Under the pieces are notes generated by a model. The model was not told where the DNA came from and did not search any database. It saw only the letters and a list, made by a program, of their open reading frames with translations. 47,272 bases of DNA from Sulfuritalea sp. (GTDB lineage Bacteria > Pseudomonadota > Gammaproteobacteria > Burkholderiales > Burkholderiaceae_C): positions 1 to 47,272 of the forward strand of contig JAIPDD010000003.1 of the NCBI GenBank assembly GCA_021737875.1. Direction: 5' to 3'. Below are positions 938 through 15,830 of this stretch, piece by piece (the first letter of the stretch is position 1; the number at the start of each line of letters is the position of its first letter). Made by a program: the position numbers and the translations under genes.

Positions 938-991
938 CGGCACCGCCGTCAACGACTCAAAGAGGATTTCGTCAGTATTTTTCACATGCCT

Positions 992-1047
992 AAGGTAGAC
1001 AAGAATGATGTATTTTTGATGACTTTTTTGTGAATTTTTAATGACTC
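992..1047 (-). promoter_or_regulatory. Tandem Pho-box-like promoter of the glycosyltransferase
   Basis: Read on the minus strand, four 7-mers lie exactly 11 bp apart: GAGTCAT (1041-1047), AATTCAC (1030-1036), AAGTCAT (1019-1025) and AATACAT (1008-1014), all with A-rich 4-bp spacers. Ten bases after the last unit is TACCTT (992-997), a TAnnnT -10. The known PhoB site is repeated CTGTCAT-like 7-mers with 4-bp spacers and a -10 about 10 bp downstream. The first unit overlaps the lplT stop codon. PhoB binding itself is inferred. Confidence 0.6.
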
Positions 1048-2287
1048 AGCCTGCCGCTGCGCTCCATGTTTGTCTATGTTGCCACCCAATTAAAAGCATG
1101 GCGCAACTTACCAACACACCAAAGCCCAAGATAAGCACCCCAAGGGATAAGCCCAAAGCGGTGACGAACGCGTACAAGCACAAAACCGCTAGCATCCCGG
1201 CGTTTTCATTGAAGCCTTGTACCGCAATTGAACGACCGGCTGTGAGCAAGGTAGCGCCTCGGTGTTGCAACAGCGCGTTCATGGGAACCACAAAAAAACC
1301 GGCCATTGCACCCACAAGAATCAGCAAGCACACCGCCTGTTCCACCGAACTCACGAGCAGCAACAGCGGAATCGACAGTCCCAACAGAAGCCCCAAAGGC
1401 CATAACTTCGGAGTGCGTTCGAGGGCAACCATGCGACTGGCAAGCGCAGCGCCAGCGATCACACCGATGGCTGTGACGCCTTGGAGGTAGGCTGCTTGGG
1501 TCAAAGGTAAGGCCAGTGCCTCTTGGGCCCAGCGCAACACAATCAACTGCAAGGTGGCGCCCACGCCCCAAAGCAAGGTCGTGATCGACATGGATAAACC
1601 GCCTAAGGTATCGCGCCACAAAACTGCATTTTCTCGAACAAACCGCTGCACCAACTCCCATGGGTGAAAGGAATGTTGCACGTAACGCGCGCCGTTATCC
1701 AAAATACAAAAGCTCAGCACTACCGCCGCCACGTTAAGCACAATTAGCACCAACATACCAAGTACATAGGCGCTATCTGTCACTGGCAGTGGGGTAACCC
1801 AAACTGGAACACCCAAGGCACTGAGCCAAGGGCTTACCAAAGCACCTCCAAGCACTGTGCCAAAAATGACGGCGCACACCGTAGCACCTTCAAAAAATCC
1901 ATTGGCCTTGACCAAATCCTGAGGTGGCAAAAGTTCCGTGATCAGTCCGTACTTGGCCGGCGCATACCCTGCAGCACCAAACCCTGCCAAGGTAATGGCC
2001 CATACCGGATCCAGCCCGCAGGCCATCAGCGCAATCGCAAGAATTTTGAGGAGATTGGCCACCACCATCACGCGCCCTTTAGGAAACGCATCAGCCATCG
2101 CTCCCACCAACGGAGCCAAGACCACGTAAAAAAGCGTGAAGCCAACTTTGAGGATGGGAATCAACCATGCCCCCGCCTGCAGCTCAAGAACCCGGGCAAT
2201 TGCCACAATCAGAAAGGCGTTATCCACCAGGGTTGAAATAAATTGCGCGGTCAGAAGCGTATAAAAAGTGCGAGGCAAGCGTTTCAT
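1046..2287 (-). CDS. lplT: Lysophospholipid transporter LplT (MFS)
   Basis: 413-residue, very hydrophobic major-facilitator protein with about 12 predicted membrane segments. The start (FYTLLTAQFISTLVDNAF) and the following stretch with APAKYGLITELLPP match the LplT family. LplT flips lysophosphatidylethanolamine and related lysophospholipids across the inner membrane for re-acylation. The ATG at 2287 follows the TGA of the upstream YkgJ-like gene after 1 bp, so the two are probably translationally coupled. In Enterobacteria LplT is paired with the acyltransferase Aas; no acyltransferase is visible here. Its stop codon overlaps the Pho-box-like promoter of the glycosyltransferase. The setting among phosphorus-scavenging genes suggests a part in lipid turnover (inference). 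Confidence 0.88.
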   Translation of the reverse strand: MKRLPRTFYTLLTAQFISTLVDNAFLIVAIARVLELQAGAWLIPILKVGFTLFYVVLAPLVGAMADAFPKGRVMVVANLLKILAIALMACGLDPVWAITLAGFGAAGYAPAKYGLITELLPPQDLVKANGFFEGATVCAVIFGTVLGGALVSPWLSALGVPVWVTPLPVTDSAYVLGMLVLIVLNVAAVVLSFCILDNGARYVQHSFHPWELVQRFVRENAVLWRDTLGGLSMSITTLLWGVGATLQLIVLRWAQEALALPLTQAAYLQGVTAIGVIAGAALASRMVALERTPKLWPLGLLLGLSIPLLLLVSSVEQAVCLLILVGAMAGFFVVPMNALLQHRGATLLTAGRSIAVQGFNENAGMLAVLCLYAFVTALGLSLGVLILGFGVLVSCAMLLIGWQHRQTWSAAAG

Positions 2288-2288
2288 G

Positions 2289-2750
2289 TCAAACCACTGC
2301 CGTGGCCACCACGCGTGGACTGAACTTGACCACAGAGTAACTTGGGCAGGCGTAGCGCTCTATGTCATGGGCATTGATTGGAAATGAGCCGCAATTAGAA
2401 AAACGGCGCAAGGGGGAGTGGTAAATACCGCACTGAAAACGCGTATCGCCCATATCCTCCAAAAAAACGCATCGCTTTTCCATACAGCAGTTTCCACATT
2501 GCACACACGATCCCTCAATCTCATCGGGAACATGGTGGATTCTGCCAACGACCTCTTCAAAGTAATGCACAACCGGCCCTTCGCGCAAGGCGCGAATATG
2601 TATGGCCATTTTTTTGAGAACCGTTGGGTATTGCAAGAAGTACTTAGCACGAAAAAAAACGATGCTGGCTAACAAGGGCATGAGGGGCAGGAAAAGATAA
2701 GCAAGTCCAATCACAACAAAAGCAAAAAATTTCGCAATCAGTTTTTGCAA
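2289..2750 (-). CDS. YkgJ-like cysteine-cluster membrane protein
   Basis: About 153 residues. An N-terminal hydrophobic segment (roughly 8-35) is followed by a cytoplasmic-looking domain with eight cysteines: C-x2-C-x2-CC (C82, C85, C88, C89), then C94, C107, C120 and C135. This pattern is that of the YkgJ/UPF0153 zinc- or iron-binding family, whose biochemical role is unknown. I chose the TTG at 2750 because AAGGA lies six bases upstream. The frame stays open to a TTG at 2792, but that lies inside the stem of the upstream terminator and has no ribosome-binding site. It ends 1 bp before lplT, so the pair forms an operon. A metal-dependent or redox role next to a lysophospholipid transporter is only a guess. 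Confidence 0.65.
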   Translation of the reverse strand: MQKLIAKFFAFVVIGLAYLFLPLMPLLASIVFFRAKYFLQYPTVLKKMAIHIRALREGPVVHYFEEVVGRIHHVPDEIEGSCVQCGNCCMEKRCVFLEDMGDTRFQCGIYHSPLRRFSNCGSFPINAHDIERYACPSYSVVKFSPRVVATAVV

Positions 2751-2775
2751 AGCTTTATCCTTCAAACGCAGATGT

Positions 2776-2808
2776 AAAAAAGCACACCGCAAGATGCTTG
2801 CGATGTGC
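2776..2808 (-). terminator. Rho-independent terminator after the phosphoesterase
   Basis: On the minus strand, a long stem pairs GCACA/TGTGC and CGCAAG/CTTGCG (2782-2808, one internal mismatch, small loop) and is followed by six T (2776-2781). It starts about 22 bp after the stop of the phosphoesterase. The T-run ends only about 25 bp before the chosen start of the next gene, so that gene depends on read-through or on a promoter hidden in this short stretch. Confidence 0.8.
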
Positions 2809-2829
2809 CAGCGAAACGCTTTTTTTGAA

Positions 2830-3843
2830 TTACGGCTGGTGAACGATCACTGGCGTTACCGAAAATACATGGGGTGATTTGGTATCTACCCCAACGCGAA
2901 CCCAATGCAACGATGGGCTGCCAAAGGTTTGAACGCGAGTGAAGTTCGTCAGCATTTTGTTGGGGTTGTACATAGGCTTGTCCATCTTGAAGAAATGGGT
3001 GTCGCCGTGAACAAACAAAACTTGCCCTTTGAATTGCGCTGTTTGTTCAGCCAATTTACCCATGAAATTTTGAAAACCACTTGAGCTTGCGTTGGTGCTT
3101 TCGTCAAACTCTTCGGTTTCTGGGACATCAAAGCCAGGGTCGCCCTGGGTCACGATCACGATACCCGCCGCATTTGCTGCTTTTGCCTGCGCAAAAGAAG
3201 CCGTCATCCAGGCCACGTTGGCTGCATCGCGCTCTAAGTATTCAGCGTTGGCTGCATCGCACTGCGCGGTATCGCGGGCGCTCTTGGACTTGCATTCTTT
3301 TTCACTCATCACAACATTGTTATTGCTGCCCGACTGGTTGATGCCAACAAAGACCACGCCACCGTGGCTAAACCGGGTGTTTTCAACAAATTTCTCACCC
3401 AACTTGCCTTGGTGTTCCAAGGGCAGTGTGCTTTTACCTAAGCTATTTAAGGTTGGGTACATCACCCGGCGAAGGTGGGATAAACGCTCCAATGTGTCAA
3501 AGCCACCGTTATTTAATCGGTGGCAGTCGGTCCACTCGTTGTCACCGGGAACATAGACCACCGGCTTTTTCATCGAACCAAACATGGCAAGGGCGTCGTT
3601 ATAGACCTCATCGGTGCACTTCGAACTCCCGTCTTTGATGTCACCGTCGTACATGGAGAAAGCAATGTCAGAGTCGTTGATCGACTTCAATACCGCAGGC
3701 AGCTTAGGGTCATCTCCCGCTTTTTTGTAAGGCATGTCGCCCCACAGACCGAAACTAAATGGCTTTGCGGGGGTTTGGGCGAAGCTGTTGCCCACCATCA
3801 GACCCAAAGTCAAAAGAGAAACCAGCGAAAGTCGTAAAAACAT
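2830..3843 (-). CDS. Exported calcineurin-like metallophosphoesterase
   Basis: 337 residues with a clear signal peptide (1-22, ending SFA), so periplasmic or secreted. Metal-binding motifs appear in family order: GDMPY (D36), DGD (D66-D68), PGDNEW (D101, N102) and, near 275, VHGDTH. These are the dimetal-binding residues of calcineurin-like phosphoesterases. The substrate is unknown; phosphomonoesters or diesters in the periplasm are likely. A short hairpin separates it from phnN, and it has its own Pho-box-like promoter and terminator, so it is probably a single-gene unit. AAAGG stands about 8 bases before the ATG. It is not the PlcP-type lipid phosphoesterase, which lacks a signal peptide. 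Its role as a phosphate-starvation phosphatase is inferred from the site and the neighbours. Confidence 0.85.
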   Translation of the reverse strand: MFLRLSLVSLLTLGLMVGNSFAQTPAKPFSFGLWGDMPYKKAGDDPKLPAVLKSINDSDIAFSMYDGDIKDGSSKCTDEVYNDALAMFGSMKKPVVYVPGDNEWTDCHRLNNGGFDTLERLSHLRRVMYPTLNSLGKSTLPLEHQGKLGEKFVENTRFSHGGVVFVGINQSGSNNNVVMSEKECKSKSARDTAQCDAANAEYLERDAANVAWMTASFAQAKAANAAGIVIVTQGDPGFDVPETEEFDESTNASSSGFQNFMGKLAEQTAQFKGQVLFVHGDTHFFKMDKPMYNPNKMLTNFTRVQTFGSPSLHWVRVGVDTKSPHVFSVTPVIVHQP

Positions 3844-3872
3844 GGGATTACCTTTAATGAAAAACTTTCATC

Positions 3873-3906
3873 AGATTACGTCCCATCCATTACAAATTGA
3901 TGACTC
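3873..3906 (-). promoter_or_regulatory. Pho-box-like promoter of the phosphoesterase
   Basis: Minus strand: GAGTCAT (3900-3906), 4-bp spacer CAAT, TTGTAAT (3889-3895), then exactly 10 bp and TAATCT (3873-3878). The two 7-mers match the PhoB half-site CTGTCAT at 5 of 7 positions each. The spacing to the -10 is the same as in the other three sites of this window. Confidence 0.55.
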
Positions 3907-3917
3907 TTCTACCTAAA

Positions 3918-3939
3918 CCAACGCAATAGCAGCGGTTGG
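3918..3939 (-). terminator. Weak hairpin after phnN
   Basis: Minus strand: CCAA-(C)-CGC pairs with GCG-TTGG around a 7-base loop and is followed by only TTTA. It lies between the phnN stop and the Pho-box-like promoter of the phosphoesterase. It is plausible as a weak terminator that isolates the two units, but the T-run is poor. Confidence 0.35.
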
Positions 3940-3949
3940 CCTCCCGCAT

Positions 3950-4519
3950 TTATTCAGCTAGCAAGGCCAAGCCCGTGTGTTGCACAAGCAGTTGCCGCAA
4001 GGCCAAGCCGCTGGCTTCCAGGGTTCCACCATTGGAAAGGCACAGGTCGTGCGGGCCAAGCAAAATACTTTGTGCACGCAACAAGCGTTGCTCAATGTCC
4101 GCTGCGCTTTCTCGGCCCCGATCAAGTAAACGTTGGCGAAGCAATTCAATAGGGGCAGTGATGTATAAAACAGTCAACCCTGGAAAACGCATTCGGGCCT
4201 CGTCAAGATAGGTCCGCGATCCATTCACGATGACCCATGCACCTTCGCCCTTGGGTTGCAACTCAGTGTGGCGAACACCGTAGTGCAATCCGTTGGCTAC
4301 CCAAGCTAAAGCAAAAGCGTTTTCTTCTTGCAGTTTGGCAAACAGGGGCAAGTTAACCGCCTCGTGGTCTTCGTTACTTTTGTCATGGTTGCGGGTGATC
4401 GTACGTTGGGCGAAATGCAGCGGTGGGCGCATTTGCATAGCATCTACGTGCTGACGCAGTCCGTTGAGCAAACTGTCTTTGCCAACGCCAGACGGGCCGA
4501 CGGTGTAAATCAAACGCAT
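3950..4519 (-). CDS. phnN: Ribose 1,5-bisphosphokinase PhnN
   Basis: 189 residues, guanylate-kinase-like P-loop fold with Walker A GPSGVGKDS at residues 8-16. PhnN phosphorylates ribose 1,5-bisphosphate to PRPP with ATP, returning the ribosyl moiety left after C-P bond cleavage to nucleotide metabolism. Its start overlaps the end of the DUF1045 gene by 10 bp, so the two are read as one divergent operon facing away from phnG. Length and motif are normal for the family. Confidence 0.93.
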   Translation of the reverse strand: MRLIYTVGPSGVGKDSLLNGLRQHVDAMQMRPPLHFAQRTITRNHDKSNEDHEAVNLPLFAKLQEENAFALAWVANGLHYGVRHTELQPKGEGAWVIVNGSRTYLDEARMRFPGLTVLYITAPIELLRQRLLDRGRESAADIEQRLLRAQSILLGPHDLCLSNGGTLEASGLALRQLLVQHTGLALLAE

Positions 4520-5262
4520 GGCTCGGCTTTCAATTCAAAACGTTCAACCCAGCGAAAGTCGCCCCCTTGCGCGTCTTGCGCAAACCAAGTGACAGCATCC
4601 ATCGGTACACCGTTTTCTAAGAGTGGCGCAAACCAACGCTGCGCAGCTGCAAATAAAGCGTCGCGTGTCGAAGAATCAAGACCGCGCAAGGACCCTGTCA
4701 GCGTCATATGAAACTGAAACTCCTCCATGACGAAGGGGTAGCCCCACTGCTGCAACAGGTTTTCCTGTCGGGCAGTCAAGCCACCCGCACGCCGACGTAG
4801 CAACTCAGACTCCGATAGCACCAAAGCGCAGGGGTGCAATGCCCGTACGCAGCGATCGGCCAAGGCGTTCAGTTGCGCACTGGGTTTGCGCGGCACCAAA
4901 GCCAAAAAATCACCTACATCAGCGAGCTGCAAGGTCAAATGGAATGGGCCCGTGCCTATGGCACTGGTTTGCATAAAAGACGCATGCAAATGTTCAAGGG
5001 AGCTGCCCAGTGCTAATTCAAAGGGCGCTTTGAGCGTTGCATGCCAACCATACTGTCGGGGCGATTGGGTTAAGCGGTGAAACGTACCCGCATCAATGGT
5101 GTCGATCAAGGGCTGAACATGCGCTTGAGAGCCAAATGCACAGCGCCCAAGCCAGCGTGACCCCAAGTCCCAGGCCTGTGAATCGCTCTTGGGCGCGAAG
5201 TAGGCTGCGTGGCGATAGGGGCCACTCGCAGCGGTGGTCGGAATTAGGGGTGCTTCGGTCAT
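4510..5262 (-). CDS. DUF1045 phosphonate-cluster protein, 2H phosphoesterase type
   Basis: 250 residues. It carries two H-x-T motifs, YGWHATLKAPF (H74, T76) and FQFHMTLTG (H185, T187), the paired catalytic signature of the 2H phosphoesterase superfamily. The DUF1045 family occurs with C-P lyase genes. Members of the 2H superfamily hydrolyse cyclic phosphates, which would suit opening of 5-phosphoribosyl 1,2-cyclic phosphate, the step done by PhnP in E. coli. No phnP is visible here, so a replacement role is possible but unproved. The ATG at 5262 was chosen because the open frame further upstream overlaps phnG on the other strand and adds no family-like sequence. It is co-directional with phnN (10 bp overlap) and divergent from phnG over 60 bp. 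Confidence 0.85.
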   Translation of the reverse strand: MTEAPLIPTTAASGPYRHAAYFAPKSDSQAWDLGSRWLGRCAFGSQAHVQPLIDTIDAGTFHRLTQSPRQYGWHATLKAPFELALGSSLEHLHASFMQTSAIGTGPFHLTLQLADVGDFLALVPRKPSAQLNALADRCVRALHPCALVLSESELLRRRAGGLTARQENLLQQWGYPFVMEEFQFHMTLTGSLRGLDSSTRDALFAAAQRWFAPLLENGVPMDAVTWFAQDAQGGDFRWVERFELKAEPCV

Positions 5263-5322
5263 TTCGTCACAAAAAAGAAATATGCCAGTCGTAAAGTCCA
5301 GTCCGTTAAAGATACCACTGCG
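5263..5322. promoter_or_regulatory. Divergent phnG / DUF1045 control region with tandem repeat
   Basis: The 60 bp between two divergent phn operons must hold both promoters. An imperfect tandem direct repeat, CCAGTC-GTAAAG (5285-5296) then CCAGTC-CGTTAAAG (5298-5311), fills its right half. A poor Pho-box-like arrangement for phnG is possible (TCGTCAC at 5264-5270, 10 bp, TATGCC at 5281-5286), but its upstream half-site is weak. Neither gene has a clear Shine-Dalgarno sequence. Confidence 0.4.
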
Positions 5323-5850
5323 ATGTTGCAACCCGATTACACCCCTTCCGCCAAAGCACTTCCGCCGGGCGCAGCCGCGCGACAAACATGGATGGCACTT
5401 TTGGCGCGCGCCCCGGAGGCCCTGCTAGAAAAACATCTCGCTGCCATGGCTGCGGGAGATTTGCAATGGCTTCGCCCCACCGAAACAGGGTTAATGATGG
5501 TGCAGGGTCGCGCTGGTGGAACAGGCCAACGCTTTAACTTGGGCGAGGTCAGTGTCACCCGTTGCGTACTCAAGCCCGATGCAGACCTGACCGATTGTCG
5601 CCAAGTCGGCGTTGCTTACGTCATGGGTAACTCTCACCGCCACGCGCAACTGGCTGCGTTGGCAGACGCACTTTTGCAAGAACCCGCTCTGCACGAACAC
5701 TGGGACCAACTGTTGTTGCGGCCCTTAAGCCGGGTGCTGTCTGACCAGGCGCAAGAAAAAAATGCACAAGCGCAGGCAACCCGAGTCGAGTTTTTTACCG
5801 TTGCACGGGAAGCGGGCAGCGGCGCAGACGCACAGGACGATGCACCATGA
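5323..5850 (+). CDS. phnG: C-P lyase core subunit PhnG
   Basis: 175 residues, matching the PhnG family, with a conserved stretch around LGEVSVTRCVL and GNSHRHAQLAALADAL. PhnG is part of the PhnGHIJ core complex and helps PhnI displace adenine from ATP with the phosphonate, forming ribose-5-triphosphate 1-phosphonate. It has a slightly long N-terminus and a low-complexity Ala/Asp-rich C-terminal tail compared with E. coli (about 150 residues). First gene of the plus-strand operon; its TGA overlaps the ATG of phnH by 4 bp. Confidence 0.93.
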   Translation: MLQPDYTPSAKALPPGAAARQTWMALLARAPEALLEKHLAAMAAGDLQWLRPTETGLMMVQGRAGGTGQRFNLGEVSVTRCVLKPDADLTDCRQVGVAYVMGNSHRHAQLAALADALLQEPALHEHWDQLLLRPLSRVLSDQAQEKNAQAQATRVEFFTVAREAGSGADAQDDAP

Positions 5851-6473
5851 TGCAACCCGCACTCCAAGACCTGGGCCGCGGTTTCGCAGAGCCTGCCGCC
5901 TGCAGCCAAACGGTATTTCGCCAAGCGCTTGACGCTTTGTCATTGCCAGGGCGCCTGCAGCATCTGGATGTGAGCGGGCCCATGCAATCCATGCAAGCAC
6001 CCCAAAACGCCCACCCGGCAGCGGCAGCCTTATTGCTGGCTTTGCTAGACCAAGACTGCAAGCTCTGGCTCTCGTCTGGTTTTGATATTAGTGATGCAGG
6101 CACATGGCTACGATTTCACACCGGCTGCACACTCGTATCGGACTCCAAAGAGGCCGATTTTGTTTGGGTGGCCTCCCCCTTAGAAATGCCAGCGTTCGAG
6201 CATTTGGCCCAAGGTAGTGCGGAATATCCGGAGTTGTCGGCAACGTGCGTGGTGCAGGTCATGGGTCTGGCTACTTCTGACCAAGCGGGCGCGTGGTCCA
6301 TCAGCGGCCCTGGGATCAAGGGCACAGGACATATGCATGTAGACGGCTTGTCGCCGGAATTTACGACCCAACGCTGTGCGAGCCAAGCTCACTCTCCGTG
6401 CGGGGTTGATTTCTTATTCACCCACAGTGTGTCGTTCGTGGGTTTGCCCCGCTCTACCTTGATCAAGGACTAA
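5847..6473 (+). CDS. phnH: C-P lyase core subunit PhnH
   Basis: 208 residues. PhnH has a PLP-transferase-like fold without the cofactor lysine and is a structural subunit of the PhnGHIJ complex. Family features visible are FRQALDALSLPGR near the N-terminus, the central WVASPLEMP, and ISGPGIKG. It starts inside the end of phnG (ATGA overlap) and stops 5 bp before phnI, so translation of the core subunits is coupled. Length is normal. Confidence 0.93.
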   Translation: MMQPALQDLGRGFAEPAACSQTVFRQALDALSLPGRLQHLDVSGPMQSMQAPQNAHPAAAALLLALLDQDCKLWLSSGFDISDAGTWLRFHTGCTLVSDSKEADFVWVASPLEMPAFEHLAQGSAEYPELSATCVVQVMGLATSDQAGAWSISGPGIKGTGHMHVDGLSPEFTTQRCASQAHSPCGVDFLFTHSVSFVGLPRSTLIKD

Positions 6474-6478
6474 GCCCT

Positions 6479-7573
6479 ATGTATGTAGCCGTCAAAGGGG
6501 GCGAGTCTGCCATTCTCAATAGCTATGACCTCTTGGCCCAGCAGCGCCGAGGGGACCCCGCCGTAGAAGAGCTCAGCGTCGATCAAATTCGCCAGCAACT
6601 TCGCTTGGCAGTGGACCGCGTCATGACCGAAGGCTCAGTCTACGACCCCCAACTTGCGGCTTTGGCCATTAAACAAAGCGCGGGTGATCTGGTGGAGGCG
6701 ATATTTTTGTTACGGGCTTACCGCGCTACGCTGCCGCGCTTGGGTTACAGCGTGCCCCTGGATACTGCGGGAATGCAAATTGCACGCAGGATTTCAGCTG
6801 CGTTCAAAGATTTACCTGGCGGCCAGGTCTTGGGCCCCACGTATGACTACACCCAGCGGCTGTTGGATTTCAGTCTCCTTGCCAAAGGCGCTGTGGCCCC
6901 CGTCGCACGACAAGCGCAGGCGAGTACCGAAGCCACGCCGCGTGTGGTGGATTTGCTTCACCACGAAAGTCTGTTGGAAACCCAACATGCGCCCAGCGGC
7001 GATCCGGACCCTTTTGACCTCACGCGGCAGCCCGTTCGGTTCCCCGCAGACCGTTCTGCCCGCCTCCAAAACCTTGCGCGGGCTGATGAAGGATTTTTGC
7101 TGGCCATGGCGTATTCAACGCAACGTGGCTACTCAGAATCGCACCCGTTTGTTGGCGAAATTCGGTTTGGAACAGTGAACCTGTGCATTGCGCCAGAAGA
7201 ACTAGGGTTCGAAATTTCGATTGGTGACCTTCCCATCACCGAGTGCCAAATGATTAACCAGTTCCAAGGCAGCCATGCGCAGCCGCCACAGTTCACCCGC
7301 GGCTACGGCCTGGCGTTTGGCCACAGCGAACGCAAAGCCATGGCCATGGCCTTGGTGGACCGTGCATTGCGGGCCGAGGAATTGGGCGAAGCGGTGACAG
7401 CGCCGGCCCAAATGCAAGAATTTGTGATGTCGCACAGCGACAGCTTGGAGAGCTCAGGTTTTGTGCAGCACTTGAAGTTGCCGCATTATGTTGACTTCCA
7501 ATCGGAGTTGGAGTTGGTGCGAAAAATGCGCCAGTCTTTCGCAAACGCAAAGGACGCGCATGCTGCCGGTTGA
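6479..7573 (+). CDS. phnI: C-P lyase core subunit PhnI (nucleosidase-like)
   Basis: 364 residues beginning MYVAVKGGESAI, the standard PhnI start. PhnI catalyses displacement of the purine of ATP by the phosphonate in the presence of PhnG, PhnH and PhnL. Conserved stretches AIKQSAGDLVEAIFLLRAYR and GYGLAFGHSERKAMAMAL are visible. The reading frame runs 14 bp into phnJ, an unusually long overlap compared with the 4-bp overlaps elsewhere in this operon. Confidence 0.95.
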   Translation: MYVAVKGGESAILNSYDLLAQQRRGDPAVEELSVDQIRQQLRLAVDRVMTEGSVYDPQLAALAIKQSAGDLVEAIFLLRAYRATLPRLGYSVPLDTAGMQIARRISAAFKDLPGGQVLGPTYDYTQRLLDFSLLAKGAVAPVARQAQASTEATPRVVDLLHHESLLETQHAPSGDPDPFDLTRQPVRFPADRSARLQNLARADEGFLLAMAYSTQRGYSESHPFVGEIRFGTVNLCIAPEELGFEISIGDLPITECQMINQFQGSHAQPPQFTRGYGLAFGHSERKAMAMALVDRALRAEELGEAVTAPAQMQEFVMSHSDSLESSGFVQHLKLPHYVDFQSELELVRKMRQSFANAKDAHAAG

Positions 7574-8432: not shown

Positions 8433-9217
8433 CAAGCACCGATCACACGCCACCCCTCATGCGCGTGCAGGACTTGGCCTGCGCGTATGGCGCTCGCTCC
8501 GTGGTTCGCGACATTTCTTTTGACTTGTGGCCCGGAGAAGTGTTGGCGATAGTGGGTGAATCAGGCTCAGGAAAAACCACGTTACTCAACGCGGTTGCGG
8601 CCCGCCACACGCCCAGTGCCGGGCAGGTATTCTTTGAAATGCGCGACCACGGTTTGCAAGACATTTACGCCATGTCAGAAGCCCAGCGGCGCATGCTGTC
8701 TCGAACCGACTGGGGCTTTGTTCACCAAAACGCTGCCGATGGATTACGTATGAATGTATCGGCCGGTGCCAATGTCAGCGAGCGCCTGATGGCGTTGGGC
8801 CAGCGGCACTATGGCCGGCTGCGCGAGCAAGCCACCGACTGGCTAGAACGCGTGGAGATCAGTCCCAGCCGCATCGATGATCGGCCAGATACGTTCTCAG
8901 GCGGGATGCGCCAGCGGCTTCAAATTGCCCGCAATCTGATCACACAACCGCGTTTGGTCTTTATGGACGAACCCACCTCGGGTTTGGACGTTTCAGTGCA
9001 AGCCCGGCTGCTCGATATGTTGCGGATGTTGACGCGCCAGATGAACCTCGCTGCCATCATCGTCACCCATGACTTGGCGGTGGCTCGCTTGTTAGCCCAA
9101 CGCATGATGGTGATGCAAAACGGCCAAGCCGTCGAAACCGGCCTGACCGACCAAGTATTGGACGACCCACAACACCCTTACACCCAGCTTTTGGTTTCTT
9201 CGGTGCTGCAACCATGA
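8429..9217 (+). CDS. phnK: C-P lyase ABC-like subunit PhnK
   Basis: 262 residues, ABC ATPase fold: Walker A GESGSGKTT, signature FSGGMRQRLQ, Walker B LVFMDEPTSGLD and H-loop VTHD. PhnK has the look of an oligopeptide-type ABC ATPase but no membrane partner. In E. coli it binds the PhnJ face of the core complex, where ATP turnover is thought to open the active site. It overlaps phnJ and phnL by 4 bp on each side. Confidence 0.95.
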   Translation: MTSTDHTPPLMRVQDLACAYGARSVVRDISFDLWPGEVLAIVGESGSGKTTLLNAVAARHTPSAGQVFFEMRDHGLQDIYAMSEAQRRMLSRTDWGFVHQNAADGLRMNVSAGANVSERLMALGQRHYGRLREQATDWLERVEISPSRIDDRPDTFSGGMRQRLQIARNLITQPRLVFMDEPTSGLDVSVQARLLDMLRMLTRQMNLAAIIVTHDLAVARLLAQRMMVMQNGQAVETGLTDQVLDDPQHPYTQLLVSSVLQP

Positions 9218-9945
9218 CCCAACTACAGACCGGATCTGCGCCTTTGCTAGACATGCAAGCTGTCAGCAAACATTTTGTTTTGCATTTGCAAAACAGTACC
9301 GACTTGCCTGTTCTTCATGACTTTCACTTGACTTTGCTACCTGGGGAGTGTGTGCGTTTGAGCGGCCCCTCGGGTATGGGGAAAAGCACGGTACTCAAGC
9401 TCGCCTTTGGGAACTACCGTGCGAGCCAAGGGCATATTTGGGTACGTGACACCGATGGCACCCAGGTTGACATTACCCAAGCCAGCGCCCGAACCGTACT
9501 GCACCTGCGCAGCCAGACCATGGGTTATGTGAGCCAGTTCTTGCGGGTCATTCCGCGCGTTGCTGCAATTGACATCGTGGCGGAACCTTTGCTCGAAGGC
9601 GGGGACGCCAGCATCACTGCAGCCCAAGCCCGTGAACAAGCCGCCCATTGGCTGACCCGTTTGCGTATTCCGCAGTCGCTTTGGCAACTCCCGCCGGCTA
9701 CGTTTTCTGGAGGCGAGCAGCAGCGCATCAACATTGCCCGCAGTTTTATCAAGCCGCGGCCATTGTTGTTGCTCGATGAACCCACCGCCTCTCTGGATCC
9801 CGAAAACACCCAAACGGTGGTCGAGCTGATTACGCAAGCCCGTGCCCAAGGTGTCGCCATCCTTGGCATTTTTCACGATGACCATGTTGCACACGCCGTC
9901 GCTAGTCGCACGGTTGCAATGCAATCTTTTAAGACTACGCTATGA
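9214..9945 (+). CDS. phnL: C-P lyase ABC-like subunit PhnL
   Basis: 243 residues, ABC ATPase: Walker A GPSGMGKST, signature FSGGEQQRINIARSF, Walker B LLLDEPTASLD. PhnL is required with PhnGHI for forming the ribosyl phosphonate intermediate and associates with the core complex on top of PhnK. The insert LHLRSQTMGYVSQFLRVIPRV is family-typical. It is embedded in the run of 4-bp overlaps, so its stoichiometry is probably set by translational coupling. Confidence 0.95.
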   Translation: MTQLQTGSAPLLDMQAVSKHFVLHLQNSTDLPVLHDFHLTLLPGECVRLSGPSGMGKSTVLKLAFGNYRASQGHIWVRDTDGTQVDITQASARTVLHLRSQTMGYVSQFLRVIPRVAAIDIVAEPLLEGGDASITAAQAREQAAHWLTRLRIPQSLWQLPPATFSGGEQQRINIARSFIKPRPLLLLDEPTASLDPENTQTVVELITQARAQGVAILGIFHDDHVAHAVASRTVAMQSFKTTL

Positions 9946-11111
9946 ATTCACCCACTGCAAGCCCCACGATATTTACCAATGCGCGTTTGGTGCTCGATGA
10001 CGAAGTCGTCAACGGCAGCCTGTTGAGCCACAACGGAACGATTGAACGCATTGACCAAGGCACAAGTGCCGTCAACGGCGTGATCGATTTGCAAGGTGAC
10101 TATTTGATGCCTGGCATGGTCGAGGTACACACAGACAATTTTGAGCGCCATCTGATGCCCCGCCCTAAAGTGCGCTGGGACGATGCGCCCGCGCTGTTGG
10201 CCCATGATGCAGAAATTGCGGCTGCGGGAATCACCACGGTTTTAGACGCTCTGGGGGTTGGTGAAGCCGACCCCGACAGTGTGCGTGGCAGCGAATGGGA
10301 TTCCGTCCTCGACTGCATTCAGGAATTTTCCGATCGCGGTAGCTTGCGTGCAGACCATCTCTTGCATGTGCGATGCGAGTTGCCCGCTCCGAATACGCTG
10401 GAGTTGTTTGCGCCCTTCGTGGGCAACCCAATGGTGCGCATGATCTCCCTCATGGACCACACCCCAGGGCAGCGCCAATGGGAAAACTTAGAACACGCTT
10501 GGATTTATTTTTCCGGAAAAAAAGGCTGGAGCCGCGCGAAATTTGACGAGCGCGTGGCCATGTCCATTGAACTCCAAGCGCTTTATGCACAACCCCACCG
10601 CGCCTACTTTACGGCCTATTGCAAAGAGCACCAAATCGCATTGGCAAGTCACGATGACACGACCGTTGCCCACGTAGAGCAAGCGTTTGCCGAGGGCGCA
10701 ACAGTGTGCGAGTTTCCAACCACGGTTGCCGCCGCCCAAGCCGCACGCGATCGCAAGATGCTGACCATCATGGGCGGGCCCAATGTGGTGCGTGGTGGCT
10801 CGCACTCCGGAAATGTGTCTGCCATTGAGCTTGCTCAATTGGGTTTGATGGATATTTTGTCATCGGACTATGTGCCAGGCAGCCTGCTTTCTGCCGTGGT
10901 TCGCCTAACGGAAACCGCCGGCCTGACCTTGCCCCAAGCAGTTGCCTTGGTGAGCCGCAATCCAGCCAAGTCGATCGGCTTGAATGACCGCGGAAGTATT
11001 GCCCCTGAAATGCGTGCGGATTTAGTCCAAATGCGGATCACCACGCTCGCAGACGGACGCCAGCAACCCATAGTTCGCGCGGTCTGGCGCGGTGGTGTTC
11101 GCGTGGTTTAG
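9942..11111 (+). CDS. phnM: Ribosyl-triphosphonate diphosphatase PhnM
   Basis: 389 residues, amidohydrolase fold. The metal-binding motif EVHTDNFERH contains H63 and H70. Further metal and active-site stretches are around ASHDDT, MGGPNVVRGGSHSGN and SSDYVPGSLL. PhnM removes pyrophosphate from 5-triphosphoribosyl 1-phosphonate to make the PhnJ substrate. Last gene of the tightly overlapped phnGHIJKLM run; an 81-bp gap with its own promoter-like site follows. Confidence 0.95.
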   Translation: MNSPTASPTIFTNARLVLDDEVVNGSLLSHNGTIERIDQGTSAVNGVIDLQGDYLMPGMVEVHTDNFERHLMPRPKVRWDDAPALLAHDAEIAAAGITTVLDALGVGEADPDSVRGSEWDSVLDCIQEFSDRGSLRADHLLHVRCELPAPNTLELFAPFVGNPMVRMISLMDHTPGQRQWENLEHAWIYFSGKKGWSRAKFDERVAMSIELQALYAQPHRAYFTAYCKEHQIALASHDDTTVAHVEQAFAEGATVCEFPTTVAAAQAARDRKMLTIMGGPNVVRGGSHSGNVSAIELAQLGLMDILSSDYVPGSLLSAVVRLTETAGLTLPQAVALVSRNPAKSIGLNDRGSIAPEMRADLVQMRITTLADGRQQPIVRAVWRGGVRVV

Positions 11112-11113
11112 AT

Positions 11114-11147
11114 GCGTCACACCAATGACATACAGGCCACCTAAGCT
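11114..11147 (+). promoter_or_regulatory. Pho-box-like promoter before phnCDE
   Basis: Plus strand: GCGTCAC (11114-11120), 4-bp spacer, ATGACAT (11125-11131), exactly 10 bp, then TAAGCT (11142-11147). The half-sites match CTGTCAT at 4 and 5 of 7 positions. It is weaker than the other sites but has identical spacing. It would let the transporter be transcribed apart from phnG-M. Confidence 0.4.
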
Positions 11148-11192
11148 CGCTTTTTTATTTTGAAAGCTGGCGTCTCGTCGCCCTTCCAACCT

Positions 11193-12017
11193 ATGAACAC
11201 TCTCGCACTTCACAACCTCACCAAACGCTTTGGAAATACCACAGCGGTGGACAGCGTCTCGCTTGATTTTGAAGCTGGGAGTTTTGTCGGAATCATTGGC
11301 CGCTCAGGCGCTGGAAAATCCACGCTCTTGCGCATGATCAACCGCCTCAACGAACCCACTACGGGTTCCATTGAATTTGAAGGCACAGTAGTCACCGATC
11401 TAGAAGGCAAGGCTTTAAACCAATGGCGTCGCAATTGCGCGATGGTTTTTCAGCAGTTCAATTTGATTGGTCGTTTGGATGTTTTGACCAACGTCTTGAT
11501 GGGCCGCTTAACCAGTGTGCCAACTTGGCGTGCTCTTTTAACCCTGTGGAGTGAAGCCGACAAGCTGGACGCGCTAGAAGCCTTAGACCGCTTTGGCATG
11601 GCAGACTTTGCCGCCCAGCGCTGCGATCAACTCTCCGGCGGCCAACAGCAACGCGTAGCCATCTGCCGCGCCCTGGTTCAACGCCCCAAAATTATTTTGG
11701 CTGACGAGCCCATCGCTTCCCTTGACCCACGCAACACCCAAATGGTGATGGATGCGCTGCAAAGCATTAATACAGATTTGGGTATCACGGTCTTGTGCAA
11801 CTTGCATGCACTCGATGTTGCACGCAATTACTGCGACCGCTTGGTTGGAATGTCTGCCGGGAGTGTGGTGTTTGATGGCGCTCCTGACGCGCTGAGCCAA
11901 GACCTTGTGAAGTCGCTCTACGGCATCGAAGCCGACGAGGCGCTGCACGCAAGCCCACAGAGTGATCACAACCAATCCAATGTTCTCCCTTTTGAGCGTG
12001 TGGTTCACACCGCTTAA
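11193..12017 (+). CDS. phnC: Phosphonate ABC transporter ATPase PhnC
   Basis: 274 residues from the ATG at 11193: Walker [10 protein letters not shown] (36-44), signature [15 protein letters not shown], Walker [12 protein letters not shown]. PhnC powers phosphonate (and phosphite or phosphate ester) import. A longer version from a TTG at 11160 is possible, but the added 11 residues are not family-like. Neither start has a good ribosome-binding site. 46 bp before phnD. Confidence 0.93.
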
Positions 12018-12063
12018 ATATTTCCCCTGTGTTTTTTCATTTTTAACTACCAAGGAACTTTGT

Positions 12064-12963
12064 ATGTTTAATCGCCGCGTTCTCCTCGCATTGGCTGCTT
12101 CTAGCGCGCTGATGGCTTCTGCCCAAGCACAAGATTGGAAAGCCAAATACCCCGAATTGATTTTTGCCAGCATCCCTGATGAAAATGCAACGATGGTGAC
12201 TGAAAAGTATGCTGATTTTGTAGCGTACTTGTCCCGTGAAATCGGTGTTCCAGTCAAGCTGCGCATTGCAGGTGACTACGCTGCTGTGATTGAAGGCCAA
12301 CGCGCTGAGCAGATCCATTTCGCTTACCACGGCTCCTCCTCTTACGCACGTGCCCGCATGATTGGCGTGAAGATCACACCGTTTGCCATTGAAGTCAACA
12401 AAGGCGGCGTCAAGGCGTACCACTCTGTGTTTTATGTGAAAGCCAATTCAGCCTACAAAAAAGTGGAAGATCTCAAAGGCAAAAGCATCGCTTTGGTTGA
12501 CCCAAATTCAACCTCTGGCAACAACGTCCCACGCTATGCGATGGACAAAATGGGTATCAAGCCGGATGAATTTTTTGGCAAAGTGGTTTACAGCGGTAGC
12601 CATACCAACGCGGTGATGGCGCTCAGCCAAGGTACCGTCGATGTGGCTGCAAACTGGTGGAACAACGAAACCGATTCCGAATTGATCCGTATGTCCGACA
12701 AAGGCATGGTTAAAAAGGAAGATTTCCGGATTATTTACAAATCCGATGCCATCGTGAACTCACCCATTGCTTACCTTGACAGCTTACCTGCTGACTTGAA
12801 AAAGAAAATTGAGCAGGCCTTTTTTGATGCACCGAAAAAAGACAAAGCTGCGTTTGACAAAGTCTCTGGCGGTAAAAATGAACCTTTCCAGCCAGTCACC
12901 CACGAAGCCTATTTGCCCGTGGTGGCGCTCAACCAGTTTGTTGACGCATTGCGTAAAAAGTAA
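12064..12963 (+). CDS. phnD: Phosphonate-binding periplasmic protein PhnD
   Basis: 299 residues with a signal peptide (1-22, ending SAQA). Typical PhnD features are visible: AYHGSSSYARA and GKSIALVDPNSTSGNNVPRY in the ligand-binding clefts, and ANWWNNETDSE. It captures phosphonates in the periplasm for the PhnE permeases. The ATG at 12064 is supported by AAGGAA eight bases upstream and by the signal peptide; the frame is open further upstream into phnC but without sense. Ends 6 bp before phnE1. Confidence 0.95.
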   Translation: MFNRRVLLALAASSALMASAQAQDWKAKYPELIFASIPDENATMVTEKYADFVAYLSREIGVPVKLRIAGDYAAVIEGQRAEQIHFAYHGSSSYARARMIGVKITPFAIEVNKGGVKAYHSVFYVKANSAYKKVEDLKGKSIALVDPNSTSGNNVPRYAMDKMGIKPDEFFGKVVYSGSHTNAVMALSQGTVDVAANWWNNETDSELIRMSDKGMVKKEDFRIIYKSDAIVNSPIAYLDSLPADLKKKIEQAFFDAPKKDKAAFDKVSGGKNEPFQPVTHEAYLPVVALNQFVDALRKK

Positions 12964-12969
12964 GCACGC

Positions 12970-13827
12970 ATGACAGCGCTCAACACCATGGGCGTGGCCT
13001 ATGCCCAAGCGGTGGTGGCTAAACGCCGCCAGCTTTGGCTGGGCTTATTGGTGTTGGGCGTGTGTGTCCTATTTTCTGGACACATCACAGAGATCTCTTT
13101 TTCAAAATTTTTTGACAACATTGGTGCTTTCACCAGCTACATTGTTCGTATTGCCCACCTTGAAAACGGCCAGTCGGTCTTGAGCAATCCCGCAGAGTGG
13201 TTCTGGGGATGGAAAAAATGGTTGGCCCTGATGGGCGAGACCTTGTTGATGGCCTATGTAGGCACATTGTTGGGCGCCTCAGCCGCCTTGGGTCTGTGTT
13301 TCTTAGCGAGTAAAAACGTAACCGCTAACACGGCGGTGGTGTTTGCTACCCGTCGTATTCTTGAGTTTTCGCGAACCGTCCCAGAGATGGTGTTCGCATT
13401 GATTTTTGTTGTGGCGTTTAGTTTGGGTCCATTGCCCGGAATTTTGGCGCTTGCCATTCACACTACAGGCGCTTTAGGAAAATTGTTTGCCGAAGTAGTT
13501 GAAAACATCGATATGAAACCGGTCGATGGAGTTGTATCAACAGGCGGCACTTGGCTGCATAAAGTCCGTTTTGCCGTGTTGCCTCAGGTAGCTTCCAATT
13601 TCGCCAGTTATGCCTTGCTGCGCTTTGAAATTAATGTGCGAAGCGCTGCCGTTTTGGGCTTTGTGGGCGCAGGCGGAATTGGAAAAACGCTGCTTGAAGT
13701 GGTCCGCAAGTTTTATTATGCGGATGTCAGCGCATTGTTGGTCTTGATCATTGCCACTGTCATGTTGATCGACACCATTACCGAGCGGGTACGCCACCGT
13801 TTACTCGGCCAAGAGAGTGCGTCATGA
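12970..13827 (+). CDS. phnE: Phosphonate ABC transporter permease PhnE (first copy)
   Basis: 285 residues, inner-membrane permease of the BPD_transp_1 type with about 6 membrane segments. The EAA-like coupling loop is at EVVENIDMKPVDGVVSTGG and the end of the domain at GFVGAGGIGKTLLEV. It pairs with the second PhnE to form a heterodimeric channel, an arrangement known where phnE1 and phnE2 occur together, whereas E. coli has a single gene. Overlaps the second copy by 4 bp. Confidence 0.93.
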   Translation: MTALNTMGVAYAQAVVAKRRQLWLGLLVLGVCVLFSGHITEISFSKFFDNIGAFTSYIVRIAHLENGQSVLSNPAEWFWGWKKWLALMGETLLMAYVGTLLGASAALGLCFLASKNVTANTAVVFATRRILEFSRTVPEMVFALIFVVAFSLGPLPGILALAIHTTGALGKLFAEVVENIDMKPVDGVVSTGGTWLHKVRFAVLPQVASNFASYALLRFEINVRSAAVLGFVGAGGIGKTLLEVVRKFYYADVSALLVLIIATVMLIDTITERVRHRLLGQESAS

Positions 13828-14660
13828 ACCAGCGCGACATACTCCGCCAGCGCTACAGCTCTGAATTTCAGCCGTTTTACCAAGGCAATCTTCGGGCGTT
13901 TGCCATAGCGCTATTTGCAGCCGCTTTGTTTTTTTATGGCTTGTACAGTCTTGACATGAGCTACGCGCGAATCACGGGTGGGATCAGTGAGCTTGGACGG
14001 ATGGTGCTTCTCATGCTTCCCCCAGATCCTGGCACCTGGACGCGCGCAGGTACCTATGTTTACGCAATGGTGGAGACACTTTCTATCGCCTTGCTGGGCA
14101 CCTTGTCAGCCGCCGTCCTCGCGTTCCCGTTGGGATTTTTAGCCGCTCGCAATACGACGCTGAACCGTATTGTTCAGTTTTTCGCCCGCCGTAGCTTTGA
14201 TACGCTGCGCGGCGTTGATATTTTGATTTGGGCACTCATTTGGATTAACGTGGTTGGTTTGGGCCCGTTTGCAGGCGTACTGGCTTTGCTGATGTCAGAC
14301 TTAGGCAGCTTTGGCAAGTTGTTTTCTGAAGCGATTGAAGCCGCCGATGACAAGCCAGTGGAAGGCGTCGTGTCTACCGGCGGTTCCTCATTGTCTGCGG
14401 TTCGCTTTGGCATCTTGCCCCAGTTGATGCCCGTACTGTTAAGCCAAGTGCTATACGCCTTTGAGTCCAACACCCGCAGCGCCTCCATCATCGGAATCGT
14501 AGGTGCAGGCGGCATCGGGCTCATATTGTCCGAGCAAATTCGCACACTGGAATTTCAGCAAATGTCGTTTGTCATTTTGCTCATTTTGGCGACAGTCTCC
14601 GTGATTGATTATTTGTGCTCCAAACTCCGCTTTTCTATCATCGGAGTGCGGGCTCGGTAG
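13824..14660 (+). CDS. phnE: Phosphonate ABC transporter permease PhnE (second copy)
   Basis: 278 residues, membrane permease related to the preceding gene. Coupling loop EAIEAADDKPVEGVVSTGG and C-terminal GIVGAGGIGLILSEQ match the same family positions. The two copies have clearly diverged, so this is a stable heterodimer rather than a fresh duplication. ATGA overlap with the first copy; 22 bp before the HD-domain gene, which has its own AAGGAA. Confidence 0.93.
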   Translation: MNQRDILRQRYSSEFQPFYQGNLRAFAIALFAAALFFYGLYSLDMSYARITGGISELGRMVLLMLPPDPGTWTRAGTYVYAMVETLSIALLGTLSAAVLAFPLGFLAARNTTLNRIVQFFARRSFDTLRGVDILIWALIWINVVGLGPFAGVLALLMSDLGSFGKLFSEAIEAADDKPVEGVVSTGGSSLSAVRFGILPQLMPVLLSQVLYAFESNTRSASIIGIVGAGGIGLILSEQIRTLEFQQMSFVILLILATVSVIDYLCSKLRFSIIGVRAR

Positions 14661-14682
14661 CTTGGCTGATTAAGGAAACTCC

Positions 14683-15243
14683 ATGTCTTTGTCGATCCCT
14701 GAAATCGTTCAGCTGCTAGGCAGCCGCGCTACCACGTGGTACGGGCAAGAAGCCGTCAGCCAGCTCGACCACGCATTGCAATGCGCCCACCTCGCAGAAC
14801 AGGCCAATGAAACCCCGGAGACGGTGGTGGCGGCCTTGCTCCATGATCTTGGCCACATCTTAAGCACCAAGCGCCCCGATGAAGTGCCCGCCGATGTGTT
14901 GCCAACCCAGGATGACCTCCACCAGTTTGTTGCCCTGCCCTTTTTGCGCAGCCAGTTCTCTGACGCAGTGTTAGAACCCATCAAGTTGCATGTCGATGCC
15001 AAACGCTATTTGTGTGCCGTGGATGCCGGTTATTGGGAAGCCCTGTCACCAGCCTCTAAGCACAGCCTTGAATTACAGGGCGGCCGGTACGACGAAGCGC
15101 AAGTGCTCTCGTTTGAAGCGTTGACGTTCTATTCGGAAGCCGTGCGTTTGCGCCGCTACGATGATTTAGCCAAGGTTCCCGGGCAAATCACCCCACCCTT
15201 AACCCATTACGCTACGCTGATGGAACAAGTGAAAGTGGCGTAA
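14683..15243 (+). CDS. PhnZ-like HD-domain diiron oxygenase
   Basis: 186 residues of the phosphonate-operon HD family. The residues of PhnZ line up: Y20-x-x-E23 (gating tyrosine and glutamate), H30, H54-D55 (HD), H58, H80, H103, K107 and an aspartate at 160-161. PhnZ uses a mixed-valent diiron site and O2 to cleave 1-hydroxyphosphonates to a carboxylic acid and phosphate. The usual partner, a 2-oxoglutarate-dependent hydroxylase (PhnY or TmpA), is not in this window, so either it lies elsewhere or this enzyme acts directly on a hydroxyphosphonate. Last gene of the phnCDE unit. Its 3' end overlaps the convergent phosphatase by 32 bp. Family assignment is strong; the substrate is unknown. Confidence 0.85.
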   Translation: MSLSIPEIVQLLGSRATTWYGQEAVSQLDHALQCAHLAEQANETPETVVAALLHDLGHILSTKRPDEVPADVLPTQDDLHQFVALPFLRSQFSDAVLEPIKLHVDAKRYLCAVDAGYWEALSPASKHSLELQGGRYDEAQVLSFEALTFYSEAVRLRRYDDLAKVPGQITPPLTHYATLMEQVKVA

Positions 15244-15757
15244 AGGCTTCCACATACGATTCTTGTTTGTGGGTCTCAATAGCGCCAGGTCGGTATTGGC
15301 GCACCCGGGCGATCGCTGCCTCGCTGCTCCAGCCCCACGTTTTGTACATGGTGGCCACCAACGTTCCAGTGCGCCCTTTGCCATGGGCGCAATGCACCAA
15401 GATATTGCCTGATTGCAGCGTGTTCGTGAGTTGCGGAATCAAACGCCGCCACTGTGCCGTAACAGCCGTAGAAGGTACGCCAAAATCTACGACCGGCAAC
15501 TGGTGCCACGCAATACCATGCAAACCCAAATGGTGTGAGAGGTTCTTCGCCCCCAAACGTTGTAGCTCAACGGTGTCAAGCAAACTCACCACCGTTTTGA
15601 TCCCATGCGCAAGTATCAGCGCAATATCTTCAGCCAATGGGTTTTCACCAGCAAGGCCTGCTCGCGTTTTTCCAGGACACGCAGACATCCCGACCTCACC
15701 CTTCCATGGGGTGGGTGCAAAGTCAATGGTGAGTGCGGTAGGTTCTGGAGTTTTCAC
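15212..15757 (-). CDS. CX5R (dual-specificity/CDKN3-like) phosphatase
   Basis: 181 residues. The cysteine-phosphatase P-loop VHCAHGKGRTGT has C123-x5-R129. The general-acid aspartate is in VVDFGVP (D91). SACPGKTR near the N-terminus is shared by the small CDKN3-like branch of bacterial dual-specificity phosphatases. The substrate could be a protein, a sugar phosphate or a phosphoribosyl product. Start taken as GTG at 15757 because conserved sequence begins at about residue 9; an ATG at codon 24 with AAGGGTGAGG upstream is an alternative. The best Pho-box-like promoter of the window lies directly upstream, and the predicted transcript start falls almost on the GTG. Convergent with, and overlapping by 32 bp, the HD oxygenase. 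Confidence 0.85.
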   Translation of the reverse strand: MKTPEPTALTIDFAPTPWKGEVGMSACPGKTRAGLAGENPLAEDIALILAHGIKTVVSLLDTVELQRLGAKNLSHHLGLHGIAWHQLPVVDFGVPSTAVTAQWRRLIPQLTNTLQSGNILVHCAHGKGRTGTLVATMYKTWGWSSEAAIARVRQYRPGAIETHKQESYVEAFTPLSLVPSA

Positions 15758-15763
15758 AGTCCT

Positions 15764-15797
15764 GTTATATCTTTTTCGTGCGACAGGGGAATGACAT
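15764..15797 (-). promoter_or_regulatory. Pho-box-like promoter of the CX5R phosphatase
   Basis: Minus strand: ATGTCAT (15791-15797, 6 of 7 to CTGTCAT), 4-bp spacer TCCC, CTGTCGC (15780-15786, 5 of 7), exactly 10 bp, then TATAAC (15764-15769, 5 of 6 to TATAAT). Best-scoring site of the four found here. Confidence 0.65.
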
Positions 15798-15803
15798 AAA
15801 GAC

Positions 15804-15830
15804 GAAAAAAAACCCGGGCAAGCCCGGGTT
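15804..15830 (-). terminator. Rho-independent terminator of the porin gene
   Basis: A perfect stem AACCCGGGC/GCCCGGGTT with a 2-base loop at 15811-15830 is followed on the minus strand by eight T. It lies 28 bp after the porin stop and just before the Pho-box-like promoter of the phosphatase, so the two units are insulated. Confidence 0.92.

Follow-up and report, generated by a model that had tools for sequence, protein, structure and literature searches.

The 47,272-nucleotide contig JAIPDD010000003.1 of Sulfuritalea sp. (Burkholderiaceae_C; probably from fresh water), which was analysed in full and is called the window here, carries at its left end the genes for a carbon–phosphorus (C–P) lyase and a phosphonate importer. 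It is contig C99 of a draft genome of 2.17 Mb in 154 contigs that is 82% complete. From the left, the minus strand carries genes for a GT4 glycosyltransferase (GT4), the lysophospholipid transporter LplT, a small Cys-rich protein (CxxC), an exported phosphoesterase-like protein (PE), PhnN and a DUF1045 protein. These are followed on the plus strand by phnGHIJKLM and by phnC-D-E1-E2-HD, which ends in an HD-domain gene, and on the minus strand by a CX5R (DSP-type) phosphatase gene (DSP), a porin-like gene and glmM (Table 1). A first-pass annotation made from the letters alone had proposed that GT4, PE, phnC and DSP share one promoter layout, with two CTGTCAT-like half-sites 11 bp apart (a Pho box) followed after 10 bp by a TAnnnT hexamer, and that the first 16 kb form a block regulated by PhoB. 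The layout of the native pst promoters, the encoded PhoB and PhoR, a native matrix and related genomes support such a block, but with an extent of about 37 kb rather than 16. We propose, with a probability of about 0.86, that the left 16 kb forms one end, with phosphonate and lipid genes, of a ~37-kb phosphorus-scavenging block under putative PhoB control.

Pho-type sites at the left end of the window

All four proposed 34-mers lie where they had been placed, each in a single copy on its own strand; the half-sites keep the 11-bp period, and 10 bp separate them from a hexamer. The hexamer takes the form TAnnnT at GT4 (TACCTT), PE (TAATCT) and phnC (TAAGCT) but not at DSP (TATAAC). The half-sites are as described, except that the proximal one of GT4, AATACAT, matches only three of the seven bases.

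These sites were scored with a PhoB matrix native to the genus, for which the DNA upstream of pstS in 22 genus-mates and the genome itself was read in both directions so that the side of the divergent fasciclin gene was included (30 loci were fetched from 104 genomes with a match, and 8 from other families were excluded). Sites were picked with an imposed 11-bp period and without use of the hexamer; 44 of the 46 best sites passed a threshold of 11 or more matches over the 14 half-site bases. Removal of the genome's own two sites and of two from one near-duplicate locus left 40 for the matrix, which scores the 18-bp box plus TA...T; matrix A scores the 18-bp box alone. Although the picks rested on half-sites, TAnnnT stands 10 bp downstream in 41 of the 44, and the three exceptions (minus strand of L014, L015 and L036) are misplaced picks. 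The genome's own two sites, left out of the matrix, score 28.2 bits for pstS (TTGTCAC ATGA ATGTCAC N10 TAAAGT) and 33.1 bits for the divergent fasciclin gene (TTGTCAC ATAT TTGTCAT N10 TACGCT).

On both strands of the window, the sites of PE, phnC and DSP take the first three ranks of the box-plus-hexamer matrix (Table 1), where a simulated first-order background gives 0.47 matches per window at 12 bits or more and 0.09 at 16 or more. The next two matches are one of 9.1 bits inside a large open reading frame (ORF; carB by eye) and one of 8.6 bits before phnG. Three of the four proposed sites thus pass the matrix, but that of GT4 is no better than background. At 24 other listed gene starts, a control that does not list every gene and in which some start positions are approximate, the best score is 7.3 bits (porin-like gene), then 5.7 (icd), and the remaining 22 are negative.

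The box alone discriminates poorly. With matrix A the same three sites rank second, fourth and fifth at 10.2–11.5 bits, and six matches of at least 10 bits are observed per window where 4.5 are expected. Because the box alone does not rise above background, what sets the sites apart is the spacing together with the hexamer. The top matrix A match, at 15751-15768 (+) with 12.6 bits, overlaps the DSP start in the opposite direction, and another at 16978 (+) with 10.6 bits exceeds PE and phnC; matrix A was rejected as a discriminator. The N10 spacing occurs at all five sites when that of phnG is included, with TAnnnT at four and TATAAC at DSP. None of the eight sigma-70-like pairs found in positions 1-16500 uses the hexamer of a Pho-type site.

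Conservation in related genomes differs between the sites. Of the 25 relatives scored for PE, all but L245 and L247 have a box of at least 9 bits, and in 15 of these 23 the hexamer is TAnnnT; the 25 remain from 29 fetched of 42, after L239 and L243 (short upstream) and L260 and L261 (partial) were dropped. For phnC, 18 genus relatives were scored; G002 has a box of 5.4 bits and the other 17 one of at least 8. Rows are absent for G016, the second contig of G026 and the second copy of G048, and G083, from another family and counted apart, has 20.7 bits. The DSP box occupies the same −40 place in three of six scored relatives (G026, 14.9; G004, 7.7; G037, 2.7 bits), and in G035, G062 and G055 the best match is at another place. 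For GT4, 70 relatives gave a match, of which 29 were fetched, and all of these were scored: the best match lies at −86 to −89 in 25, and there 23 of the 29 reach at least 5 bits and 4 reach at least 12. The relatives often have GCATCAT CAAG CTGTTAT N10 TAGTCT with an extra repeat upstream; here too a further unit, AATTCAC, stands upstream of the site (pair 1019-1036). Because the position of the array is kept in relatives and the site is weak here, the GT4 site has the look of an ancient Pho-type array that degenerated in this genome.

The first-pass list of four promoters omitted the site before phnG. The phnC box alone would leave out phnGHIJKLM, and a fifth box before phnG fills this gap. 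A best match of the same form precedes phnG in all 14 scored genus relatives (5.2–11.2 bits), at exactly −59 in ten of them, at −58 in one and at −49 or −78 in three. We also took the best 80 of 587 PhnJ loci, partly from the same genomes as the genus set, and could score phnG in 75 and phnC in 78, many of the 28–33% ‘phnC’ matches probably being other ABC proteins. Upstream of phnG, 52 of the 75 loci reach at least 5 bits and 44 at least 8, a score that a random stretch of this length attains with a probability of ~0.005; among the 29 more distant loci (L203-L231) no more than 10 score 5 bits or above. In Comamonadaceae the layout is often CTGTCAT GAAA NNTACAY N10 TAAGCT. The box is lopsided: both sites score at least 4 bits in 42 loci, and 37 of these have a weaker proximal half-site at phnG than at phnC (means −2.0 versus 8.3), the distal one being on average stronger at phnG (8.3 versus 5.4). 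The Wilcoxon p of 1e-7 for this comparison overstates its significance because the 42 loci are related. In the window itself the proximal half-site scores −7.9 bits at both phnG and GT4.

Mean scores over the alignments set the sites apart from the controls: 14.6 bits for phnC, 7.5 for phnG and 7.3 for GT4, against 2.3 for DUF1045, −9.8 for HD, −18.7 for phnN and −19.0 for phnD. The DUF1045 value, a mean over 14 aligned sequences, belongs to a possible weak sixth box that could serve DUF1045-phnN; this candidate overlies the first codons of phnG, so that coding constraint partly confounds its score.

Table 1 Genes and Pho-type sites at the left end of the window
Feature	Position	Strand	Basis or score
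GT4 glycosyltransferase, 5′ part	2..937	−	Pfam GT4 domains; runs on into contig C45
GT4 promoter site: AAGTCAT CAAA AATACAT N10 TACCTT	992..1025	−	1.6 bits in this genome
lplT, lysophospholipid transporter	1046..2287	−	NF008397, 448 bits (cut-off 297)
CxxC, small Cys-rich protein	2289..2771	−	In G026 it comes after the Pho box
PE, exported phosphoesterase-like protein	2830..3843	−	Enzyme class inferred by eye
PE box and hexamer: GAGTCAT CAAT TTGTAAT N10 TAATCT	3873..3906	−	16.2 bits, rank 1
phnN	3950..4519	−	TIGR02322 above cut-off
DUF1045 phosphonate-operon protein	4510..5262	−	PF06299 above cut-off; TIGR03223 218.9 bits, below cut-off 248.95
phnG lopsided box and hexamer: TCGTCAC AAAA AAGAAAT N10 TAAAGT	5264..5297 (box 5264-5281)	+	8.6 bits, rank 5
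DUF1045-phnN possible weak sixth box: GTGTAAT CGGG TTGCAAC N10 TATCTT	5309..5342	−	4.3 bits
phnGHIJKLM, C–P lyase core	5323..11111	+	PhnG, H, I, J, K, L and M all above cut-off
phnC box and hexamer: GCGTCAC ACCA ATGACAT N10 TAAGCT	11114..11147	+	16.1 bits, rank 2
phnC, phnD, phnE1, phnE2, phosphonate importer	11193..14660	+	PhnC and both PhnE above cut-off; PhnD PF12974
Phosphonate-associated HD-domain protein	14683..15243	+	PF01966 above cut-off; TIGR03276 202.3 bits, below cut-off 214.6
DSP, CX5R (DSP-type) phosphatase	15212..15757	−	PF22784 and related phosphatase families above cut-off
DSP box and hexamer: ATGTCAT TCCC CTGTCGC N10 TATAAC	15764..15797	−	12.6 bits, rank 3
Porin-like gene	15859-16836	−	By eye; glmM (−) next, also by eye

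A block that probably extends across two contigs

The terminal 344 bp of the window (1-344) match positions 1-344 of contig C45 at 98.3% identity, with six mismatches and no gaps, inside the GT4 gene; contig C25 of the relative G026 spans this junction unbroken. Given the end overlap within GT4, the phn and pst-phoBR genes are probably neighbours. C45 carries, in order, psd, a class-III aminotransferase gene, a small membrane protein gene, a ugd-like gene and genes for a CorA-family transporter, an OlsB-like acyltransferase and a plcP-like metallophosphatase, and then an agt-like GT4 gene, ppk, a sixA-like gene, ppx, the fasciclin gene, pstSCAB, phoU, phoB and phoR. The distance from DSP to phoR is ~37 kb over the two contigs, and the functions gathered there comprise phosphonate uptake, C–P lyase, lipid replacement, polyphosphate kinase and phosphatase, Pst, and PhoBR. 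The phoBR genes stand behind pst-phoU, and both products exceed their model cut-offs (PhoB, TIGR02154, 320.3 bits, cut-off 296.2; PhoR, TIGR02966, 385.7 bits, cut-off 334.2).

Besides the fasciclin and pstS sites, the scan of C45 gave matches before ugd (21.9 bits), the small membrane protein gene (14.0) and the OlsB-like gene (12.3); psd, the aminotransferase gene and ppx have no site above 9 bits. The ugd box (5627-5644 of C45, minus strand, locus L141) lies 367 bp upstream of the gene, with no ORF of at least 150 amino acids listed between them; this box may mark the start of a short gene or an RNA.

Across the genome, the pattern TGTCAYN5TGTCAYN10TANNNT with up to two mismatches matches 13 times, and its reversed control 4 times. 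Three of the matches are on C99 (PE, phnC and DSP; binomial p 0.0025 for this share), six on C45 and four elsewhere. The two contigs together hold 9 of the 13, or 7 of 11 (p 1e-8) without the two pst sites.

In related genomes the block is only partly together. G026 has the stretch from ugd to pstS on contig C109 and that from phn to psd on C25, and G008 has ugd, the aminotransferase gene, psd, GT4, lplT and ppx-pstS in a 20-kb stretch with no phn match. A GT4-psd block lies near a different phnC-D-E-like set in G014, G006 and G061 (L149 to L151), and phn and pst are on separate contigs in G034, G004 and G045. Among the relatives looked at, phn and pst thus stand together in the genome itself and probably in G026.

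PE is tied to the regulon by its distance of only ~5-9 kb from pstS in six relatives (G034, G045, G020, G018, G010 and G069). It is missing at the matching place in the closest relative, G026, with no match anywhere in that draft; G026 keeps a box of 17.5 bits (GAGTCAT CAAA ATGTCAT N10 TAATCT) before the Cys-rich gene. By sequence, PE is a well-conserved, predicted exported family outside Pfam and NCBIfam: it has no family in either, its matches to PDB sequences are no better than E 0.2, and D36, D66-G-D, GDNEW and HGDTH are invariant in 11 aligned sequences. A single-sequence structure model was too poor for use (pLDDT 40.9).

Some neighbouring features are recorded here for completeness. The porin-like gene is likewise missing at the matching place in G026, so that with PE there are two instances of local gain, loss or relocation. 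Terminator-like stems (32 found, 23.8 expected) at 2781-2809 (−) after PE and at 15811-15830 (−) after the porin-like gene could separate PE from CxxC-lplT and the porin-like gene from DSP. Before the porin-like gene, 16980-16997 (−) reads ATGTGAA ATTA ATGTGAC, with Pho-like spacing, reverse-looking half-sites and a score of 7.3 bits. The sixA-like and porin-like genes, PlcP, Agt, glmM, carB and the housekeeping genes to the right of 16.9 kb were named by eye only. A Pfam search of the porin-like gene gave no match, Pfam and NCBIfam searches of the CxxC protein gave no family, and an NCBIfam search gave no match above cut-off for PlcP and Agt, whose names come from resemblance by eye. Against curated NCBIfam glycolipid-synthase models (Mgs/Agt-like), the window's GT4 gene, which is cut by the contig end, scored at best 135.9 bits (cut-off 480).

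Proposed control of the block and its alternatives

At low phosphate, PhoR would phosphorylate PhoB, and PhoB~P would bind the tandem half-sites, which would stand in for a −35 element so that RNA polymerase starts from the hexamer 10 bp downstream. Separate Pho promoters would thereby serve PE, phnGHIJKLM, phnCDE1E2-HD and the DSP phosphatase gene, and weakly GT4 in this strain. The pst/fasciclin pair, with two near-perfect boxes, would be the first to respond and phnG, because its −10-proximal half-site is degenerate, the last, with the other phn promoters in between. We infer the binding, induction, operon limits and order of response from sequence features. Expression in E. coli is slower where PhoB binds less tightly, and PhoB has a ~7-fold lower affinity for the phnC promoter than for the phoB promoter (1.7 versus 0.25 µM) (PMC6194859); by analogy, phnG might respond late in Sulfuritalea. 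It is possible, although the odds are against the full proposal, that the lineage gathered much of its phosphorus-starvation response in the ~37-kb block and that graded Pho boxes order this response, from near-perfect ones for phosphate uptake through intermediate ones for phosphonate import to the lopsided box, kept in evolution, that would bring on the C–P lyase core last.

Several observations weigh against PhoB control of the block. The phnG and GT4 sites are weak in this genome (8.6 and 1.6 bits). DSP has a hexamer other than TAnnnT and a box that stands firm in no scored relative but G026. The hexamer of PE is GACATT, GACAGT, CATCGT or GATATT in 8 of the 23 relatives that have its box, and one genome-wide match on C45 (2733) lies inside a gene. 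Two misplaced training sites (L015 minus and L036 minus) were kept among the 40 of the matrix, and the conservation counts come from related genomes and from best-match lists of limited length. A column-shuffle test (300 shuffles) proved too lenient because controls passed it (DUF1045, p 0.000; HD, 0.003; phnD, 0.027; phnN gave 0.567), and the score gaps between the alignments were relied on instead.

The most serious alternative, plausible but on balance unlikely, is that PhoB switches the block on and a second, substrate-responsive regulator gates the C–P lyase operon. The authors of a study of Variovorax xiamenensis favour a need for phosphonate substrate besides low phosphate (PMC12226003), a further point against PhoB acting alone, and the phnG proximal half-site is weak in many loci. 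However, the ORF list of the first 16 kb, read by eye, contains no regulator gene, in keeping with the first-pass view that the phn cluster needs no dedicated one and that none is present, and a model search of the 82%-complete genome found no phnF above cut-off (the best GntR relative, on C46, has 103 bits; cut-off 156.8). The absence of phnF is consistent with control by PhoB alone and does not prove it.

We regard as doubtful that only PE, phnC and DSP have PhoB promoters, with GT4 and phnG ordinary or otherwise regulated and the C–P lyase not directly under PhoB. The low scores and degenerate proximal half-sites of GT4 and phnG would fit, but the phnG layout is kept in every scored genus relative and often in Comamonadaceae loci, and the GT4 position is conserved. 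Moreover, a similarly shaped PhoB site of E. coli, TGTCATTAAAAAGAAACA, is tabulated from chromatin immunoprecipitation sequencing, but it is intragenic (malF), and most intragenic PhoB sites were found to be inert (PMC10294691).

Binding by another OmpR-family regulator with 11-bp direct repeats is very improbable. Tandem repeats are common among the sites of this family, and the genome has eight Trans_reg_C matches, PhoB included, but the block consists mostly of phosphorus-acquisition and lipid genes, and the matrix was built on promoters of pst, a known target of PhoB in E. coli (PMC10294691). That the sites arose by chance in AT-rich intergenic DNA is scarcely credible, for although the 18-bp box alone is not rare, the box-plus-hexamer scores and ranks, the conservation and the genome-wide clustering speak against it.

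Relation to known systems

Earlier work already describes PhoB control of C–P lyase as well as plcP-agt clusters with Pho boxes. In E. coli, as here, a Pho box precedes phnC, and phnCDEFGHIJKLMNOP is a PhoB-dependent operon (PMC10574752, PMC10294691). Unlike that single operon, which starts at phnC and includes phnF, the Sulfuritalea genes are arranged as phnG-M and then phnC-E with separate boxes, no phnF lies above cut-off, and phnN is divergent together with DUF1045. The PhoB site of phnC is reported to be conserved in few of the species compared in PMC10294691, whereas nearly all scored genus-mates have it here.

Variovorax xiamenensis W6 belongs to the Comamonadaceae, in which the phnG layout recurs. 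On methylphosphonate versus phosphate, its phnC-E genes are highly upregulated and phnG-M upregulated, and phnJ is repressed by phosphate; the authors propose a substrate requirement, and the section on phn regulation contains no discussion of promoters (PMC12226003). The present analysis offers a sequence-based account of how Comamonadaceae could turn on C–P lyase, an enzyme that frees methane from methylphosphonate, once phosphate is exhausted, and it names the promoters.

Two features may be new, namely how compact the block is and the lopsided phnG box that relatives keep: among the titles in our literature listings, including those for the phrase ‘Pho island’, we recognised none that describes either. 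In this block a single switch would connect the use of phosphonates with the replacement of membrane lipids, and the conserved, half-degenerate phnG box lends itself well to the question of whether the genes of a nutrient response come on in an order fixed by promoter affinity.

The lipid genes resemble the plcP-agt lipid-remodelling clusters of marine bacteria described in PMC4796936, a paper whose main text does not contain the word Betaproteobacteria: in both, a plcP-like gene is followed by a GT4 gene and putative Pho boxes are present (here C45 7714-9671). Unlike in the marine clusters, the pair in Sulfuritalea is flanked by the OlsB-like gene and ppk, and C–P lyase and pst belong to the block as well.

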